From: Microbulbifer halophilus
Lineage (GTDB): Bacteria > Pseudomonadota > Gammaproteobacteria > Pseudomonadales > Cellvibrionaceae
Length of the DNA stretch: 64,000 bases
Direction of reading: 5' to 3'
NCBI RefSeq assembly: GCF_026183675.1
Contig: NZ_JAPIVK010000002.1
Location: 167,765-231,764 of the forward strand
The translations under genes and the position numbers were made by a program. A model generated the notes under the pieces. The model had not been told where the DNA came from, did not search any database, and saw only the letters and a program-made list of their open reading frames with translations. Positions 8,887 to 56,188 of the stretch are shown in pieces (the first letter of the stretch is position 1; each line of letters begins with the position of its first letter).

Positions 8887-11658
8887 ATGGACAAGACATA
8901 CCAGCCCAACGCCATCGAACAACAGTGGTACCAGACCTGGGAAGAGAGCGGCTACTTCAAGCCGTCCGGCGACACCAGCGCCGATCCCTACTGCATCATG
9001 ATTCCGCCGCCGAATGTCACCGGCAGCCTGCACATGGGCCACGGCTTCCAGGAATCCATCATGGACGCCCTGATCCGCTACCACCGTATGCAGGGCGACA
9101 ACACCCTCTGGCAGGTGGGCACCGACCACGCCGGTATCGCCACCCAGATGGTGGTGGAACGGTTGCTGGCGGCGGAAGGCAAGTCCCGTCACGAGTTGGG
9201 CCGCGACAAGTTTATCGAGAGAGTCTGGCAGTGGAAGGAAGAATCCGGCGGCAATATCACCCGCCAGCTCAGGCGCCTGGGCGCCAGCCCCGACTGGTCC
9301 CGCGAGCGCTTCACCATGGACGACGGCTTCTACAAAGCGGTGCAGGAAGTCTTTATCCGCCTGTACGAGGACGGCCTCATCTACCGCGGCAAGCGCCTGG
9401 TGAACTGGGACCCGAAACTGCACACGGCGATTTCCGACCTGGAAGTGCTGAATGAGGAAGAACAGGGCCACCTGTGGCACTTCCGCTATCCGCTGTCCGA
9501 CGGCTCCGGCCACCTGGTGGTCGCCACCACCCGCCCGGAAACCATGCTCGGCGACACCGCCGTAGCGGTGCACCCGGAGGACGAGCGCTACAAACACCTG
9601 ATCGGCAAGACCATCAAACTGCCGCTGGCGGAGCGCGAAATCCCGATTATCGGCGACGACTATGTCGACCGCGAGTTCGGCAGCGGCTGCGTCAAGATCA
9701 CCCCGGCCCACGACTTCAACGACTACGAAATGGGCCAGCGCCACAGCCTCGAGATGATCAACATCCTCGACGCCGACGCCAACCTGAACGACGAGGTGCC
9801 GGAAAAATACCGCGGCATGGAACGCTTCGCCGCCCGCTCCCAGGTCGTCGACGACCTGGACGCGCTGGGGCTACTGGAAAAAACCGAACCCCACACCCTG
9901 AAGGTACCCCGCGGCGACCGCTCCGGCGTGGTGATCGAACCCTGGCTCACCGACCAGTGGTACGTAAAAACCCGGCCGCTGGCGGAAGACGCGATCAAAG
10001 CCGTGGAAGACGGCCGCGTCAATTTCGTGCCCGACAACTACCAGAACATGTACTTCTCCTGGATGCGCGATATCCAGGACTGGTGCATCTCCCGCCAGCT
10101 CTGGTGGGGCCACCGGATCCCGGCCTGGTACGACACCGACGGCAAACTCTACGTCGGCCGTTCCGAAGAAGAAGTGCGGGAGAAACACAATCTGGGCGGT
10201 ATCGAGTTGACTCAGGACGAAGATGTGCTCGACACCTGGTTCTCCTCCGGCCTCTGGACCTTCGGCACCCTCGGCTGGCCCGAGGATACCGCGGAACTGA
10301 AAGCCTTCCACCCCACCTCCGTGCTGGTGACCGGCTTCGATATCATCTTCTTCTGGGTCGCGCGCATGATGATGCTGACCCTCTATTTCAAGAAGGAAGT
10401 CCCCTTCCACACGGTTTATGTACACGGCCTGGTGCGCGACAGCCACGGGCAGAAGATGTCCAAGTCCAAGGGCAATGTGCTGGACCCGATCGACCTGATC
10501 GACGGCATCGACCTGGAGAGCCTGGTACAAAAACGCACCAGCGGCATGATGCAACCGCACCTTCGCGACAAGATCGAAAAGCAGACTCGCAAGGAATTCC
10601 CCGAGGGCATCGCCGCCTACGGCACCGACGCGCTGCGCTACACCTACTACTCGCTGGCCTCCACCGGCCGCGATATCCGCTTCGATGTGGGCCGCATCGA
10701 GGGCTTCCGCAACTTCTGCAACAAGATCTGGAACGCCTCCCGCTACGTATTGCAGAACTGCGAGGGATACGACTGCGGCCAGGACGGCGGTGAGGATTTC
10801 GAGCTGAGCCTGGCCGACCGCTGGATTATCTCCCAGCTGCAGCGCACGGAAAAAACCGTGCGTGAAGCGATGGATACCTATCGCTTCGACCTGGCCTCCC
10901 AGGCGCTGTACGACTTTGTCTGGGCCGAGTACTGCAGCTGGTACCTGGAACTGTCCAAGCCGGTACTCTGGGATGAGAATGTGTCGCAGGCGGTCAAGAC
11001 AGGCACCCGCCGCACCCTGATCCGCGTGCTGGAAACCATACTGCGCCTGGCTCACCCACTGATGCCGTTTATCACCGAGGAAATCTGGCAGCGCGTAAAA
11101 GCCCTGGCCGGCACCAGTGGCGACACCATCATGCTGCAGCCCTATCCGGAAGCGGACGAGCGCCGGATCGACACCGGCGCCGAGGCGGCCATCGCCTGGC
11201 TCAAGGTAGTCACCGAGGGGGTGCGCAATATCCGCGGCGAAATGAACATTTCGCCGGCAAAGAAAATCCCGCTGTTGCTGCGCGGCGGTTCGGAAGAAGA
11301 CCGGGAGCGACTGGAGGCCTGCCGCAGCCTGCTGACCAAACTCGCCAGCCTGGAGTCCATCACCTGGCTGGACTCCGGCGAAACGGCCCCCGCCTCCGCC
11401 ACCGCACTCGCCGGCGACCTGGAACTACTGGTTCCCATGGCCGGCCTGATCGATGTGGCGGCGGAGAGCGCGCGCCTGCAAAAGGAAATCGACAAGCTGG
11501 AAAAGGAATTGGCCCGCGTGCGGGGCAAACTCGACAACCCCAAATTCGTCGACAAGGCACCGGCCCATGTAGTGGCGAAGGAAAAGGACAAGCTGGCGGA
11601 AATGCAGAGCGCCCTGTCGCGGCTCGACAAGCAACTGAGGGCCGTGGGCGAACTCTAA
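8887..11658 (+). CDS. valS: Valyl-tRNA synthetase
   Basis: A class I synthetase that charges tRNA-Val and edits threonine. The 923-residue protein shows [15 protein letters not shown] with the HIGH-type motif HMGH at 49-52, the KMSKS motif at 523-527 ([12 protein letters not shown]), an anticodon-binding domain and the C-terminal coiled-coil arm of Lys/Glu-rich repeats (from about 860). ATG 8887 ([15 protein letters not shown]) is the family start; a TTG 24 bases earlier is less likely. It is last in the pepA-holC-valS group. A small hairpin follows its stop. Confidence 0.98.
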
Positions 11659-11674
11659 GCACCCGCTCGGGTGC
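11659..11674. terminator. Small hairpin after valS
   Basis: GCACCCG-CT-CGGGTGC is a perfect 7-bp stem starting within the valS stop codon region. No T-run follows, so it is a weak candidate for a terminator between the convergent valS and secreted-protein genes. Confidence 0.3.
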
Positions 11675-11689
11675 GGGCGCCGCTGGCAG

Positions 11690-12247
11690 CTACATGGCCG
11701 GCTCGACGAAGGTTACATGCACCGGGCCACCGATACTCTGCAAACCATCCAGCAGGCAGTCCAGATACGCCAGTGTCGGGATATCGTTATAGGTGATCAG
11801 CACACTGCTGTTCTGGAATTTGCCGCTCACCACCTCCCCCTGCAGGGCAAACACTCGGGGAACACTGGGCAGATTCAACTCGGTGTCATACAGCTCCACT
11901 TGCACCGACTCCCAGTGGACTAGGCTGTCGGGTTGGTTGTCCCAGTCCACCAACGTAGTCCCCACGACATCGGTATTCACCAGGCAGGACAGACTCCCGT
12001 TGCCGGTGACATTTTTCAGTGTCGCCGTGTGTGTGGAAAAATCCTCGCTGAACATGCAGTTCAGATTGCCCGTACTGGTAAAGCTGGTCGCTTGCGGCAG
12101 CAACTTGAGCGGAGGGTTGAACTGCACGCTGGCATTCCCCAGACAGGTGGCATCCACCTGTTGGGCACCGGCGGGAAGCTGGTACAACAAGCCGGCCCCC
12201 AGCAGCAACACCACTGAAAATAGTTTTCTAAATTTAATTATATTCAT
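11690..12247 (-). CDS. Small secreted protein with four cysteines, function unknown
   Basis: The 185-residue product has a clear signal peptide (hydrophobic 10-23, cleavage near PAGA-QQ). The mature domain is rich in Thr, Ser, Asn and beta-strand-like segments, with four Cys (35, 64, 88, 164) that could form two disulfides. The start of the mature part, ATCLGNASVQFNPPLKLLPQ, reminds me of small secreted proteins common in Streptomyces (ATC-G-x-V-Y-P-L patterns); this is recall and needs a search. ATG 12247 follows AAGG at 8 bases. The gene is divergent from the Coq4-hydrolase fusion and less GC-rich than its neighbours, suggesting acquired DNA. Confidence 0.75.
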   Translation of the reverse strand: MNIIKFRKLFSVVLLLGAGLLYQLPAGAQQVDATCLGNASVQFNPPLKLLPQATSFTSTGNLNCMFSEDFSTHTATLKNVTGNGSLSCLVNTDVVGTTLVDWDNQPDSLVHWESVQVELYDTELNLPSVPRVFALQGEVVSGKFQNSSVLITYNDIPTLAYLDCLLDGLQSIGGPVHVTFVEPAM

Positions 12248-12599
12248 AGCTAATACCTTTATAAATTTCCAGTTGGGCTAGAATAATAATCTACAAGTAC
12301 TGACGGAACGATATTGGCCGGAGGGATACCATGCCACCGTTTGAAAAACGCAAACTTCGGCACATTTTCCTGCGGCAACAGACGTCCCCCGACAACCATC
12401 CCGCGCAGCCTTCGCCAAACCTGTCCGACGCTTCCAAGAGCCGGGAGATCGACCTCCGGGAATTGTCGTCAACGCGCCGACAGGCATAGAGATCAACCCA
12501 AAGCCGCCAAAAGTCATACAGTCCAACATCATGAGATATCTTTTAAAAATCCTGTGCCGTTTCGAAGGGTTTGTCTCCTGGATTGGGCGGAGGGGATTC
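12248..12599. other. Less GC-rich intergenic region between divergent genes
   Basis: These roughly 350 bases separate the secreted-protein gene from the Coq4-hydrolase gene and must contain both promoters. AT-rich stretches near 12230-12300 could hold a -10 element for the leftward gene. No repeat family found elsewhere in the window occurs here. Short open frames on both strands look unconvincing. Confidence 0.4.
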
Positions 12600-14123
12600 A
12601 TGTCCTTCTCCTTCCGCGCTCCCACACCTTCATCCGTCTCTTCGATGTATCTCCTTATTCATAAAAACCGACGCTGGCGCCGCCGTTTCATGACAGAAAT
12701 GTCAGAAAATCGTGCTTATGCAACCATCCTGGCAAAAAAACCGGCCACACCGGGCGACCTCCCCTCCCTGGAGAAGGCCCCGGCGGGGTCCCTTGGTCAT
12801 ACATACGCTGCTTTTATGAAAAACCACCAACTCTCCCTGCCAGTACCGGTAGAGCCGGTGCCCGACGATGACTTTCACTATTGCGTCTACCGCATTCTCA
12901 ACACCCATGATCTCTATCACGTTTTGCTGGATACCGTACCGGATTCATATGGCGAGATGGTGGTTGCCTCCTTCACCAATGCACAGATTCCACTGTATCT
13001 ACACCCATCCACTCATATCGCCGGTTCTCTTGCGTATGCAGCATTCAACCGCAACACCTCAACCCGGTTTCTGATAAGAGGGTGTGCTGTGGGGCACTTA
13101 CTGGGGCTGCGCAGCCAGCCATTGTTCAACGTTGACTGGGATACCCTGTGGCACTTGCCTCTGCCAGAAGCGAGACAAAAACTCGGCATCAACATTCCGG
13201 AAGTGGAATCCCTGGTTGACACTCACACCCCTGGAAGCCCCAGGCTTAAACTGCCAACCCTCTACGAGATGGGCGCGCATAAAGCCTATTATTATGAAAG
13301 GCGCCGTATTGGCGACCAGTATGTTCATCTCTACACACCGAGAGTTCCCACAAATGGATTGTGTCTGCTGGGGAGAGCGATGTTTACAAAAGGAGACTAC
13401 TTTCACCCCGTAGAACGGCACAGTCTCACAGCGGCTTTACTCGGGGCGGGCTGGTCGGTGGCCATCCCTGTTCCCTGCAGGGAAAATAGTGGCGATTTCG
13501 ACAAACTGGCCAAATCCCAGCTCGCTGTTATCAGAGAGTTGAACAACGACGGCTTCTCCAACCTGCATCTGATCGGTCACAGCTTTTCCGGTGTACTGTA
13601 TACTTGGCTGTGCCGCGAATATGAAGAGCTGCCAGTAAAAGGCGTGGCGACAATAGCATGCGGCCTGTGGATCCGCGAGGCAGTAAAAACACTCAGCCGC
13701 AAAGAGCGACACCACCTGATGCGCTACAACATTCAAATGAGGGTACTTCAGGCAGCCGGAAGGAAAGTCGCTTCCCGACAACATGCCTCCGAAGCACTCA
13801 GTGAGACAAAGCGCCTGGTTCGACAAGTCGTGCAATTGCCCTGGAAGGGGAAGACACTGGACCCGGACAACATACTCAATCGTCTGGAAAGGCAAAACCC
13901 ATCCCACACGGTGCCCTGCCTTTCCCTGGCAGGAAATGGAGATAAAATGATGCCCCCCTCGCTGGTTTCCACTTTTCATTCGCGTTTCATGCCACACGCG
14001 AATCAACATATATACCCCGGGGCCGGACACATGAACATTGTCGCTTCCGACCATTACTCGGGCGTATGGCACACACTTATCCACTGGCTGCAATCGGGAA
14101 AGACCACGGAGAAGAACCGCTGA
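12600..14123 (+). CDS. Fusion protein: Coq4-like zinc domain plus alpha/beta hydrolase
   Basis: The 507-residue product has two unrelated halves. Residues about 60-205 match Coq4, a ubiquinone-biosynthesis family: APAGSLGHTYAAFMKNHQLS, then the metal signature HDLYH with a Glu 11 residues later (H103, D104, H107, E119; HDxxHx11E), and a closing LPEARQKLGINIP. Residues about 235-500 look like an alpha/beta hydrolase: nucleophile elbow LIGHSFSG (Ser328; final Ser replaces the usual Gly), a candidate acid in AGNGDKM (Asp448) and a catalytic His in GAGHMNI (His477). ATG 12600 follows GGAGGGG at 4 bases; an ATG at 12531 lacks such a site. The gene lies directly upstream of the complex I operon on the same strand, 301 bases away. 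Coq4 itself acts on the C1 position of the quinone ring; the combined function is unknown. Confidence 0.85.
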   Translation: MSFSFRAPTPSSVSSMYLLIHKNRRWRRRFMTEMSENRAYATILAKKPATPGDLPSLEKAPAGSLGHTYAAFMKNHQLSLPVPVEPVPDDDFHYCVYRILNTHDLYHVLLDTVPDSYGEMVVASFTNAQIPLYLHPSTHIAGSLAYAAFNRNTSTRFLIRGCAVGHLLGLRSQPLFNVDWDTLWHLPLPEARQKLGINIPEVESLVDTHTPGSPRLKLPTLYEMGAHKAYYYERRRIGDQYVHLYTPRVPTNGLCLLGRAMFTKGDYFHPVERHSLTAALLGAGWSVAIPVPCRENSGDFDKLAKSQLAVIRELNNDGFSNLHLIGHSFSGVLYTWLCREYEELPVKGVATIACGLWIREAVKTLSRKERHHLMRYNIQMRVLQAAGRKVASRQHASEALSETKRLVRQVVQLPWKGKTLDPDNILNRLERQNPSHTVPCLSLAGNGDKMMPPSLVSTFHSRFMPHANQHIYPGAGHMNIVASDHYSGVWHTLIHWLQSGKTTEKNR

Positions 14124-14227
14124 ATGAGCGGGCGTCACCAAAAACTTCAGAATAATAGATCATAAGAACAGGCTATCTGATAATTAATCGTTCCTTTCGT
14201 GGTCTGGCTTTCATTTCTACAAAGCTT

Positions 14228-14233
14228 TATAAA
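14228..14233 (+). promoter_or_regulatory. Possible -10 element upstream of the nuo operon
   Basis: TATAAA, within the AT-rich TTTATAAAAT, lies about 195 bases before nuoA in an otherwise GC-rich neighbourhood. The matching -35 (TGGCTT, 17 bases upstream) is weak. It is the best promoter-like sequence in the 14124-14424 gap, which contains no gene. A perfect 12-bp palindrome, GTCTACGTAGAC, lies just downstream at 14255-14266 and could be an operator. Confidence 0.35.
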
Positions 14234-14254
14234 ATTACTGGCCAAACGCATTGG

Positions 14255-14266
14255 GTCTACGTAGAC
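14255..14266. promoter_or_regulatory. Perfect 12-bp palindrome in nuo leader
   Basis: GTCTACGTAGAC is self-complementary over all 12 bases and sits about 22 bases downstream of the best -10 candidate, a position typical for a repressor site. I do not recognise the binding protein. Confidence 0.35.
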
Positions 14267-14424
14267 TCATCCACCGGAGAACCAATAACAGCGCTTTCCA
14301 AAGCGGTGTAATTGTCAACAATTCGATTCCGGCCAGTATTCAGAAGTACCCCCTGTAGCAGTTGCGGTAACAGCGATGAACACAGGGCGCAGTCCGCGCC
14401 CGCCAGCCTTCGGGGAGAGAGAAG

Positions 14425-14838
14425 TTGAATGCGACAACCCTAGCCAACCCGGGTATTTGGCCACTGGTAGTCTACGGCCTGGCGGTGTTCGCGCTGATTG
14501 CACTGATGCTGGGGCTATCGCACTTCCTCGGTCAACGCCGCCGCGACAAGGCCACCGACGAACCCTACGAATCCGGCATCGTCTCCCAGGGCAGCGCCCG
14601 GCTGCGGCTATCCGTCACCTACTACCTGGTCGCCATTCTCTTCATTGTGTTCGACCTGGAAGCCATCTACCTTTTCGGCTGGGCCGTGGCCATACGCGAA
14701 ACCGGCCTCGCCGGCTTTGTCGAAGCCGTTGTTTTTATCCTGATACTGCTCGCCGGTCTGGTCTACCTGTGGCGGCTCGGCGCGCTGGATTGGGGTGGCC
14801 GACAGTTGAGCCTGCGGGAACGAGACAGACAACAATAA
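14425..14838 (+). CDS. nuoA: NADH-quinone oxidoreductase subunit A
   Basis: NuoA is a small three-helix membrane subunit near the quinone site of complex I. The 137-residue protein shows helix 1 (LVVYGLAVFALIALMLGLSHF), the conserved loop YESGIVSQGSARLRLSVTYY and helices 2 and 3 (LFIVFDLEAIYLFGWAVAIR). The in-frame start is TTG 14425 (TTG-AAT-GCG) after GGGGAGAG; an ATG four bases later is out of frame. First gene of nuoA-N; nuoB follows after 9 bases. Confidence 0.97.
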   Translation: MNATTLANPGIWPLVVYGLAVFALIALMLGLSHFLGQRRRDKATDEPYESGIVSQGSARLRLSVTYYLVAILFIVFDLEAIYLFGWAVAIRETGLAGFVEAVVFILILLAGLVYLWRLGALDWGGRQLSLRERDRQQ

Positions 14839-55376: not shown

Positions 55377-55805
55377 TTAGCCGCGCGGGCAGATCTCGTC
55401 GTCGGCGAAGAAGTAGCCGATCTCGCGGGCGGCTGATTCGGGGGAGTCGGAGCCGTGTACCGCGTTGGCGTCGATGCTGTTGGCGAAATCGGCGCGGATG
55501 GTGCCGGCTTCGGCTTCCTTCGGGTTGGTGGCGCCCATCAGGTCGCGGTTGGCGGTGATGGCGTTGTCACCTTCCAGTATCTGGACCACAACCGGGCCGG
55601 AGGTCATGAAACCCACCAGGTCCTTGAAGAAGGGACGCTCTTTGTGTTCGGCGTAGAAACCTTCAGCCTTTTCGTTGGACAGGTGCAGCATTTTCATGGC
55701 GACGATACGCAGGCCGGCCTTCTCGAAGCGGCTTTCGATTTCGCCGATAACATTCTTGGCGACCGCGTCCGGCTTGATGATGGAAAGAGTGCGCTCCTGG
55801 GCCAT
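55377..55805 (-). CDS. ndk: Nucleoside diphosphate kinase
   Basis: Ndk balances nucleoside triphosphate pools by transferring phosphate through a histidine. The 142-residue protein starts [18 protein letters not shown] and has the active site [12 protein letters not shown] (His117). The length is the usual 141-143. ATG 55805 is the conserved start. Confidence 0.97.
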
Positions 55806-55857
55806 GATTTTCTCCAATTTCTCTGGTTGCTGGGATATTCGTCATTCAAATACAGAA

Positions 55858-55879
55858 AGAGCAACCCGATAGTTGCTCT
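55858..55879 (-). terminator. Hairpin with short T-run after the isc operon (before ndk)
   Basis: On the minus strand AGAGCAAC-TATCGG-GTTGCTCT is followed by TTCTG, so it may end the isc operon transcript after iscX. The T-run is poor, and the hairpin could be partial. Confidence 0.45.
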
Positions 55880-55993
55880 CTCCCGATATTCGCTTCGTTT
55901 AATAAATAAACAACCGCCGGTGGCGGACGGCGGATTATACGCGTTACTGCGTGAAGTTTGTACTATTTCCGATGCAACGGGGCCCTATCCAGG

Positions 55994-56188
55994 CTAATCG
56001 GCCTCTTCGATCCAGGCAGCCTGGATGGCCTCGAGGATTTTCTCGCCGCAGCGATCGGGATCGTCGTCGAAACCGGGCAGCTCCACCACCCAGTTGCGCA
56101 GGTCGACGAAATTGACCCGCAGCGGATCCACATCCGGATGGGTGTCCACCAGCTCGATGGCGATATCGTTGATGTCGGTCCATTTCAT
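55994..56188 (-). CDS. iscX: Iron-sulfur cluster assembly protein IscX
   Basis: IscX is a small acidic modulator of IscS and possible iron donor. The 64-residue protein begins MKWTDINDIAIELVDTHPDV and contains FVDLRNWVVELPGFDDDPDR, which is highly conserved. Last gene of the isc operon, 21 bases after fdx. Confidence 0.96.
   Translation of the reverse strand: MKWTDINDIAIELVDTHPDVDPLRVNFVDLRNWVVELPGFDDDPDRCGEKILEAIQAAWIEEAD

Follow-up and report, generated by a model that had tools for sequence, protein, structure and literature searches.

A Coq4-type metal domain and an alpha/beta hydrolase domain in one reading frame upstream of nuoA in Microbulbifer halophilus

The fusion gene and its two domains

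The stretch of Microbulbifer halophilus DNA analysed here (the window, 64,000 nucleotides) carries at 12600..14123 on the + strand a coding sequence of 507 amino acids with an ATG start, in which a Coq4 domain is followed by an alpha/beta hydrolase domain. Its 507 codons are translated without a stop and both halves pass Pfam cut-offs, so that the single-frame fusion proposed in the preliminary description is borne out. The start at 12600 is supported by a GGAGG (12589..12593, +), read from the sequence as a probable ribosome-binding site 6 nt 5' of the ATG. An alternative upstream ATG at 12531, which would give 530 aa, is possible and has no evident ribosome-binding site.

The Coq4 domain spans residues 29-199 (12684..13196, +), where the expected match to PF05019 was obtained at 73.7 bits against a curated cut-off of 22.9 (E 1.8e-20). 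The match begins at profile position 47, and relatives from the Legionellales align from residue 11 or 12. Among solved structures, 6e12 (Alr8543, E 3.8e-15) and 3msq (E 2.6e-13) are the only ones hit by the full-length protein at E 1 or better, and both hits are confined to the Coq4 half. The metal motif HDxxHx11E, which the preliminary description had called complete, is exact at residues 103-119 (12906..12956, +): HDLYH begins at residue 103 and the motif Glu is residue 119. The four ligands (His103, Asp104, His107 and Glu119) show no variation when the window protein is aligned with 45 Coq4 proteins, hand-picked from 80 fetched, the other 35 having been omitted for size.

A linker of about 28 residues (residues 200-227; 13197..13280, +), placed in the gap that separates the Coq4 match from the first hydrolase-like sequence, leads into the alpha/beta hydrolase domain at approximately residues 228-500 (13281..14099, +; outer limits read from the alignment). 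Here too the profile matches sought were found above their cut-offs, with Hydrolase_4 (PF12146) scoring 34.1 bits against 27 over residues 317-478 and Abhydrolase_1 (PF00561) scoring 29 bits against 25.8. The three hydrolase elements noted earlier lie where expected: GHSFSG, the nucleophile elbow with predicted Ser328, starts at residue 326 (13575..13592, +), GNGD with predicted catalytic Asp448 at residue 445 (13932..13943, +), and GAGH with predicted catalytic His477 at residue 474 (14019..14030, +). Judged by motif and alignment only, the predicted triad Ser328-Asp448-His477 has the right order and spacing. An HG oxyanion motif after strand 3 is common among alpha/beta hydrolases, if not universal; the window protein lacks it and has LLGR there instead. 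Membership in the lysophospholipase L2 (PldB) family was considered and rejected, since BLASTP with E. coli PldB gave only E 1.6.

Searched alone, the hydrolase half had no significant match among solved structures, the best hits being a non-hydrolase at E 0.2 and a carboxylesterase at E 0.41. Its own genome aside, it matched in one genome out of 95 in the order (E 0.001) and in six out of 299 in the phylum (E 0.01), always weakly, and it had no plasmid match. Because this half is without a close relative in anything searched, its substrate class is based on fold-level motifs.

The base composition of the gene is foreign to its surroundings. Its GC content at third codon positions (GC3) is 0.591, second lowest among 51 heuristically called ORFs of the window (mean 0.787, sd 0.066), so the lower GC content remarked on earlier is real. 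The two halves are similar, at 0.585 and 0.595, against 0.79-0.84 for four flanking genes. The lowest GC3 of the 51 (0.556) belongs to the ORF at 55455-55997 (+).

The gap between valS and nuoA

The fusion ends 301 bases before the start of the nuoA frame (TTG, 14425) on the same strand, confirming the spacing upstream of the complex I operon that had been reported. NuoA was confirmed by Pfam, and valS and nuoB onward were named from their translations. To compare this locus with that of sister genomes, we used the 31 of 48 genomes of the genus in which NuoA was found (the window's included); of the other 30, 20 supplied the sequence preceding nuoA. In 13 of these 20 stretches, valS is matched over its full length and stops 265-1610 bp short of nuoA; ten of the gaps measure 265-751 bp, and the three of 1488-1610 bp contain a protease-like ORF. 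For the remaining seven, valS is 4.8 kb off in one, C-terminal valS-like pieces occur in two, and the stretch fetched contains no valS in four. The window's own valS-nuoA gap measures 2791 bp.

By tblastn, the fusion is absent from all 20 sister stretches. When the window's gap was aligned by blastn to the 13 sister gaps, only chance-level pieces were obtained across 11659..14133 (no strand assigned), a stretch between valS and the nuo upstream region that has no counterpart in the sisters examined. It holds the fusion and a second gene, an ORF of 185 aa at 11690..12247 (-), which has no Pfam or NCBIfam match and is likewise missing from 20/20 sister stretches by tblastn; by eye, its start looks like a signal peptide. 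Sister sequence resumes at about 14134, 11 bases past the stop of the fusion: the region 14134..14239 (+) is 75.7% identical over 107 nt to two sisters and 70.9% identical over 103 nt to a third, indicating that nuo has retained upstream DNA of its own. The edges of the variable stretch showed no convincing repeats; what was detected there amounts to two direct families, short and of two copies each, and two inverted pairs, both weak. A consensus scan of 11600-14600 found no + strand terminator; read-through from the fusion into nuo is therefore possible, which argues against a clean separation of the two.

The protease-like ORFs in the same gap of three sisters (L082, L083 and L085) contain the stretch QEVGHVFGLGH, which we take to be a protease-type motif, and the site thus seems to take up different cargo in different genomes. 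A conserved place beside nuoA, as membership in the nuo operon would imply, was found in 0 of 20 sister stretches, and the functional link with complex I that adjacency had suggested is not upheld, the gene being missing upstream of nuoA in 20/20 sisters and from 36/36 other genomes of the genus searched whole. The suspicion that the gene was acquired is probably correct, given a GC3 of 0.59 against 0.79 and its absence from the sister loci, and it probably arrived by horizontal transfer. On the plain reading of these sequence comparisons, the fusion would be foreign cargo in a variable gap, and its adjacency to complex I would mark a landing site with no working link.

Rarity of the fusion and neighbours of its relatives

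A survey of genomes for the same fusion found no second example in five surveys or in the best 80 of 264 Coq4 relatives. With the full protein as query, one of 58 relatives matched, namely the window's own genome, and the protein was missing from all 36 further genomes of the genus that were searched whole. Matches were obtained in 20 of 293 genomes of the order and 23 of 398 of the phylum (own genome counted in both); among the matches listed, the window's gene aside, each covers the Coq4 half only or, in three rows, a piece of the hydrolase half only. Of 143 genomes in the order to which the nearest Coq4 relative belongs, 3 matched, all over the Coq4 half only. When a profile was built from the window protein and the three Coq4 relatives closest to it, 4 of 369 genomes of the class matched (the window's, one whose match falls at the Legionella locus, one with another Coq4 gene, L207, and one with a hydrolase, L208), and no second fusion was seen among the 369. 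A scan of 84,980 species with the single protein returned no relative, while an alignment-based scan of the same collection returned 264 Coq4 relatives in 313 stretches, the best 80 of which include none that matches the window protein past residue 216. Since the genome sets overlap and the counts depend on each method's sensitivity, these results indicate rarity and are not proof of uniqueness.

Several apparent leads were set aside. Two long frames (L022 and L025) resembled fusions, and proved to be N-terminal frame extensions in which Coq4 is terminal and no hydrolase follows. Phages contained no match to the protein, there was no PHROG assignment, and viral contigs contained no relative; nine plasmid records, five of which were inspected, align with 27-36% of the query, all within the Coq4 part. 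A phage or plasmid origin was rejected on these grounds. Elsewhere in the genus, Coq4 genes occur in four other genomes, one as a short marginal match; they lie in different genomic settings, with no match to the window protein where those genomes were searched whole. One sister genome (G019, locus L045) has a short Coq4-like match with one internal TAG. Titles and abstract openings among the literature matches listed describe no such Coq4-hydrolase fusion.

The nearest relatives of the Coq4 half are in the Legionellales. A tree built from 89 Coq4 rows separates the window's Coq4 half, together with three proteins of the Legionellales, from the other 85 with support of 100/98; the branch leading to the window protein is long, the program flags a risk of long-branch joining, and the bootstrap had not settled. 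The nearest relative, from Legionella jamestowniensis (L112), matches residues 11-199 at 31-32% identity. In its genome and in a second one of the Legionellales (G824), Coq4 is followed by an overlapping or directly adjoining gene with weak similarity to hotdog families of the thioesterase type, in every case below the cut-off: 22.3 and 24.5 bits for DUF4442 (cut-off 25), 20.3 and 19.3 for YiiD_C (cut-off 27), and 20.4 and 19.2 for NCBIfam yiiD_Cterm (cut-off 97.1). Neither gene has a solved-structure match. In the third genome (G755), the next ORF of at least 90 aa is on the other strand, and no hotdog-like gene follows.

We also examined the genes adjoining Coq4 at the best 80 loci, taking as close neighbours ORFs from a rough call on the same strand and within 150 bp. 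A downstream neighbour was present at 25 of the 80 loci and an upstream neighbour at 25, giving 50 that were scanned. AMP-binding enzymes account for 7 of the 50, as does urease beta, and no alpha/beta hydrolase appears among the 25 of 46 neighbour families listed (E 1e-5). In five cases the AMP-binding gene and Coq4 share 4 bp; this arrangement, a Coq4-like gene followed by the overlapping AMP-binding gene, was seen in cyanobacteria at L131, L133, L134, L136 and L141. The AMP-binding gene of L131 is most like fatty-acyl-AMP ligases, below curated cut-offs. In Scytonema, the upstream neighbour is a 4HBT_2 thioesterase, above cut-off. A Coq4-like gene lies directly 3' of urease beta at L126 and L128 (both Nostoc), L118, L130, L149, L168 and L189, and at the two Nostoc loci it is also directly 5' of urease alpha.

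The 80 loci do not argue for an alpha/beta hydrolase as the usual partner of Coq4, having yielded weak or distant matches only. The hydrolase half of the window protein gave one weak match among them (E 0.045), and a three-sequence hydrolase profile matched ORFs in L133, L138 and, weakly, L161, none adjoining Coq4 on the same strand. At L101, a plasmid locus, Coq4 is about 2.2 kb away from an annotated alpha/beta hydrolase, which is on the opposite strand behind transposase genes. Another plasmid, pNL2 of Novosphingobium aromaticivorans (L105), carries two Coq4 family genes within about 4.4 kb, adjoining genes annotated for acyclic terpene utilisation, an acyl-CoA dehydrogenase and an FAD-dependent oxidoreductase.

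Proposed function and alternatives

We propose, at a probability of roughly 0.4, that the gene encodes an acquired two-step enzyme of a specialised pathway, one that would hydrolyse an ester or thioester and then decarboxylate the product, serving neither the host's ubiquinone synthesis nor complex I. Both predicted sites would be active and would act in series, the hydrolase first. The hydrolase domain (Ser328-Asp448-His477) would cut an ester or thioester whose acid is lipid-like or aromatic, and the Coq4 domain, with one or two divalent metals held by H103, D104, H107 and E119, would then remove the freed carboxylate. This decarboxylation may be oxidative, as by COQ4 at C1 of 4-hydroxybenzoate-type rings.

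While the architecture of the fusion is read directly from the DNA, the chemistry is one that we infer from excerpts of three publications and from the neighbours of other Coq4 genes. In the excerpts of PMC7615680, a reconstructed ancestral COQ4 carries out Zn-dependent decarboxylation at C1 in vitro, with no C1 hydroxylation, and double mutants of its metal motif give no product. In those of PMC9774615, Alr8543 (6e12) has two Mg2+ at the motif and oleic acid in the crystal. The review PMC12938788, in the part that points to Pelosi 2024, describes COQ4 in human cells as carrying out an oxidative decarboxylation. Set against the in vitro result, this leaves the parent COQ4 chemistry not fully settled within the text of these sources.

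The evidence for the two-step enzyme comprises the two domain scores above curated cut-offs and the retained site residues; the Legionellales split at 100/98, in which two of three relatives have a weakly thioesterase-like next gene, together with the AMP-binding neighbours (7 of 50) and the 4HBT_2 gene in Scytonema; and a GC3 that is even over both halves, against that of the flanking genes. It is weakened by the lack of close relatives of the hydrolase half and by GR instead of HG at the oxyanion position. Both hotdog matches are sub-cut-off, and the third Legionellales genome has no such gene; no alpha/beta hydrolase occurs among the 25 of 46 neighbour families listed, and urease beta is as frequent a neighbour as the AMP-binding enzymes. 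The long window branch in the tree and the single known member of the fusion weigh on the same side. The idea put forward earlier, hydrolysis of an ester or thioester followed by modification of the ring, is plausible, and it gains some weight from the weakly thioesterase-like next gene of two of the three nearest stand-alone Coq4 relatives and from the AMP-binding enzymes (7/50). A more far-reaching version strikes us as quite unlikely: that the protein would be a self-contained module whose hydrolase releases an acid, aromatic or of beta-hydroxy type, from its thioester with CoA or a carrier, for the Coq4 domain to decarboxylate in place. If it were true, bacterial Coq4-like proteins would be general acid decarboxylases of acyl-carrier pathways, and the C1 chemistry of ubiquinone one special case.

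The main rival to the two-step enzyme is that the Coq4 domain chiefly binds and presents lipid, holding an acyl or prenyl chain and offering its ester to the hydrolase as sole catalyst. We regard this as somewhat unlikely. The best profile of the hydrolase half is Hydrolase_4, a family that includes lipid esterases, and its oxyanion position reads GR as in E. coli PldB. The oleic acid in the Alr8543 crystals (in the excerpts of PMC9774615) points the same way, but the window protein retains the complete set of four metal ligands, and BLASTP with PldB gave only E 1.6. It is also conceivable, and in our judgement unlikely, that both domains belong to one pathway without acting serially on one molecule, the fusion merely tethering partners. 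The comparable pair in two Legionellales genomes consists of two separate genes, which speaks for this alternative; nothing speaks directly against it, and a linker of some 28 residues is compatible with both readings.

Two further explanations appear very improbable. A recent chance fusion or an assembly chimera, with no joint function, could account for a single member in the surveys and the best 80 of 264 relatives, yet GC3 is even across the halves, the site residues are intact, and valS and nuoA flank the gene as in 13 of 20 sister stretches, inside a contig of 237 kb. Slimmer still are the chances that the protein contributes to ubiquinone synthesis in the host or has a tie to complex I. 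The name of the Coq4 family, the position 301 bases 5' of nuoA on the same strand, and the possible read-through in the absence of a + strand terminator in 11600-14600 speak for such a role; the fusion is, however, missing in 20/20 sister stretches, and nuo retains the shared upstream DNA. Moreover, UbiD (TIGR00148) is present in 47 of 48 genomes of the genus and PF05019 in 5 of 48 (the window's genome is included in both counts, and one of the five is a short marginal match). The usual bacterial C1 decarboxylase gene is thus present without Coq4, and with UbiD in the host genome Coq4 need not serve ubiquinone. A role in the host's own ubiquinone synthesis is not sustained by these counts, and genome context argues against a ubiquinone precursor as the likely substrate of the Coq4 half. 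On sister synteny and UbiD together, we rejected a link to complex I or ubiquinone.

The interest of the fusion is that a Coq4 metal domain is joined to what is, by its motifs, an ester-cutting type of domain; none of the other genomes searched showed this combination. The Coq4 chemistry in the excerpts of PMC7615680, PMC9774615 and PMC12938788 was worked out for the eukaryotic enzyme, and those excerpts do not describe the function of the many Coq4-like proteins of bacteria. A fusion that occurs in nature identifies a partner activity for Coq4, and the thioesterase-like and AMP-binding neighbours of its relatives hint at activated or carrier-bound acids as substrates. With both sites on one protein, a direct laboratory test is feasible.

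Compared with known systems, the window protein shares its profile and sequence match, and the full HDxxHx11E, with the Coq4 family (PF05019), human COQ4 and Nostoc Alr8543 (6e12); unlike these, it has a hydrolase fused on, and its host genome has UbiD. It has Tyr106 at a position that is Trp in at least 90% of the 46 aligned Coq4 rows. To the stand-alone Legionellales proteins L112, L198 and L199 it is 32, 31 and 27% identical from residue 11 or 12 on, with the THDxYHV and HIA stretches in common, whereas two of those relatives have a weakly thioesterase-like gene next to them instead of a hydrolase domain. Its nucleophile elbow, acid and histidine come in the same order as in Hydrolase_4 and Abhydrolase_1 enzymes, and it shares with E. 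coli PldB a GR at the oxyanion position (PGR in PldB).
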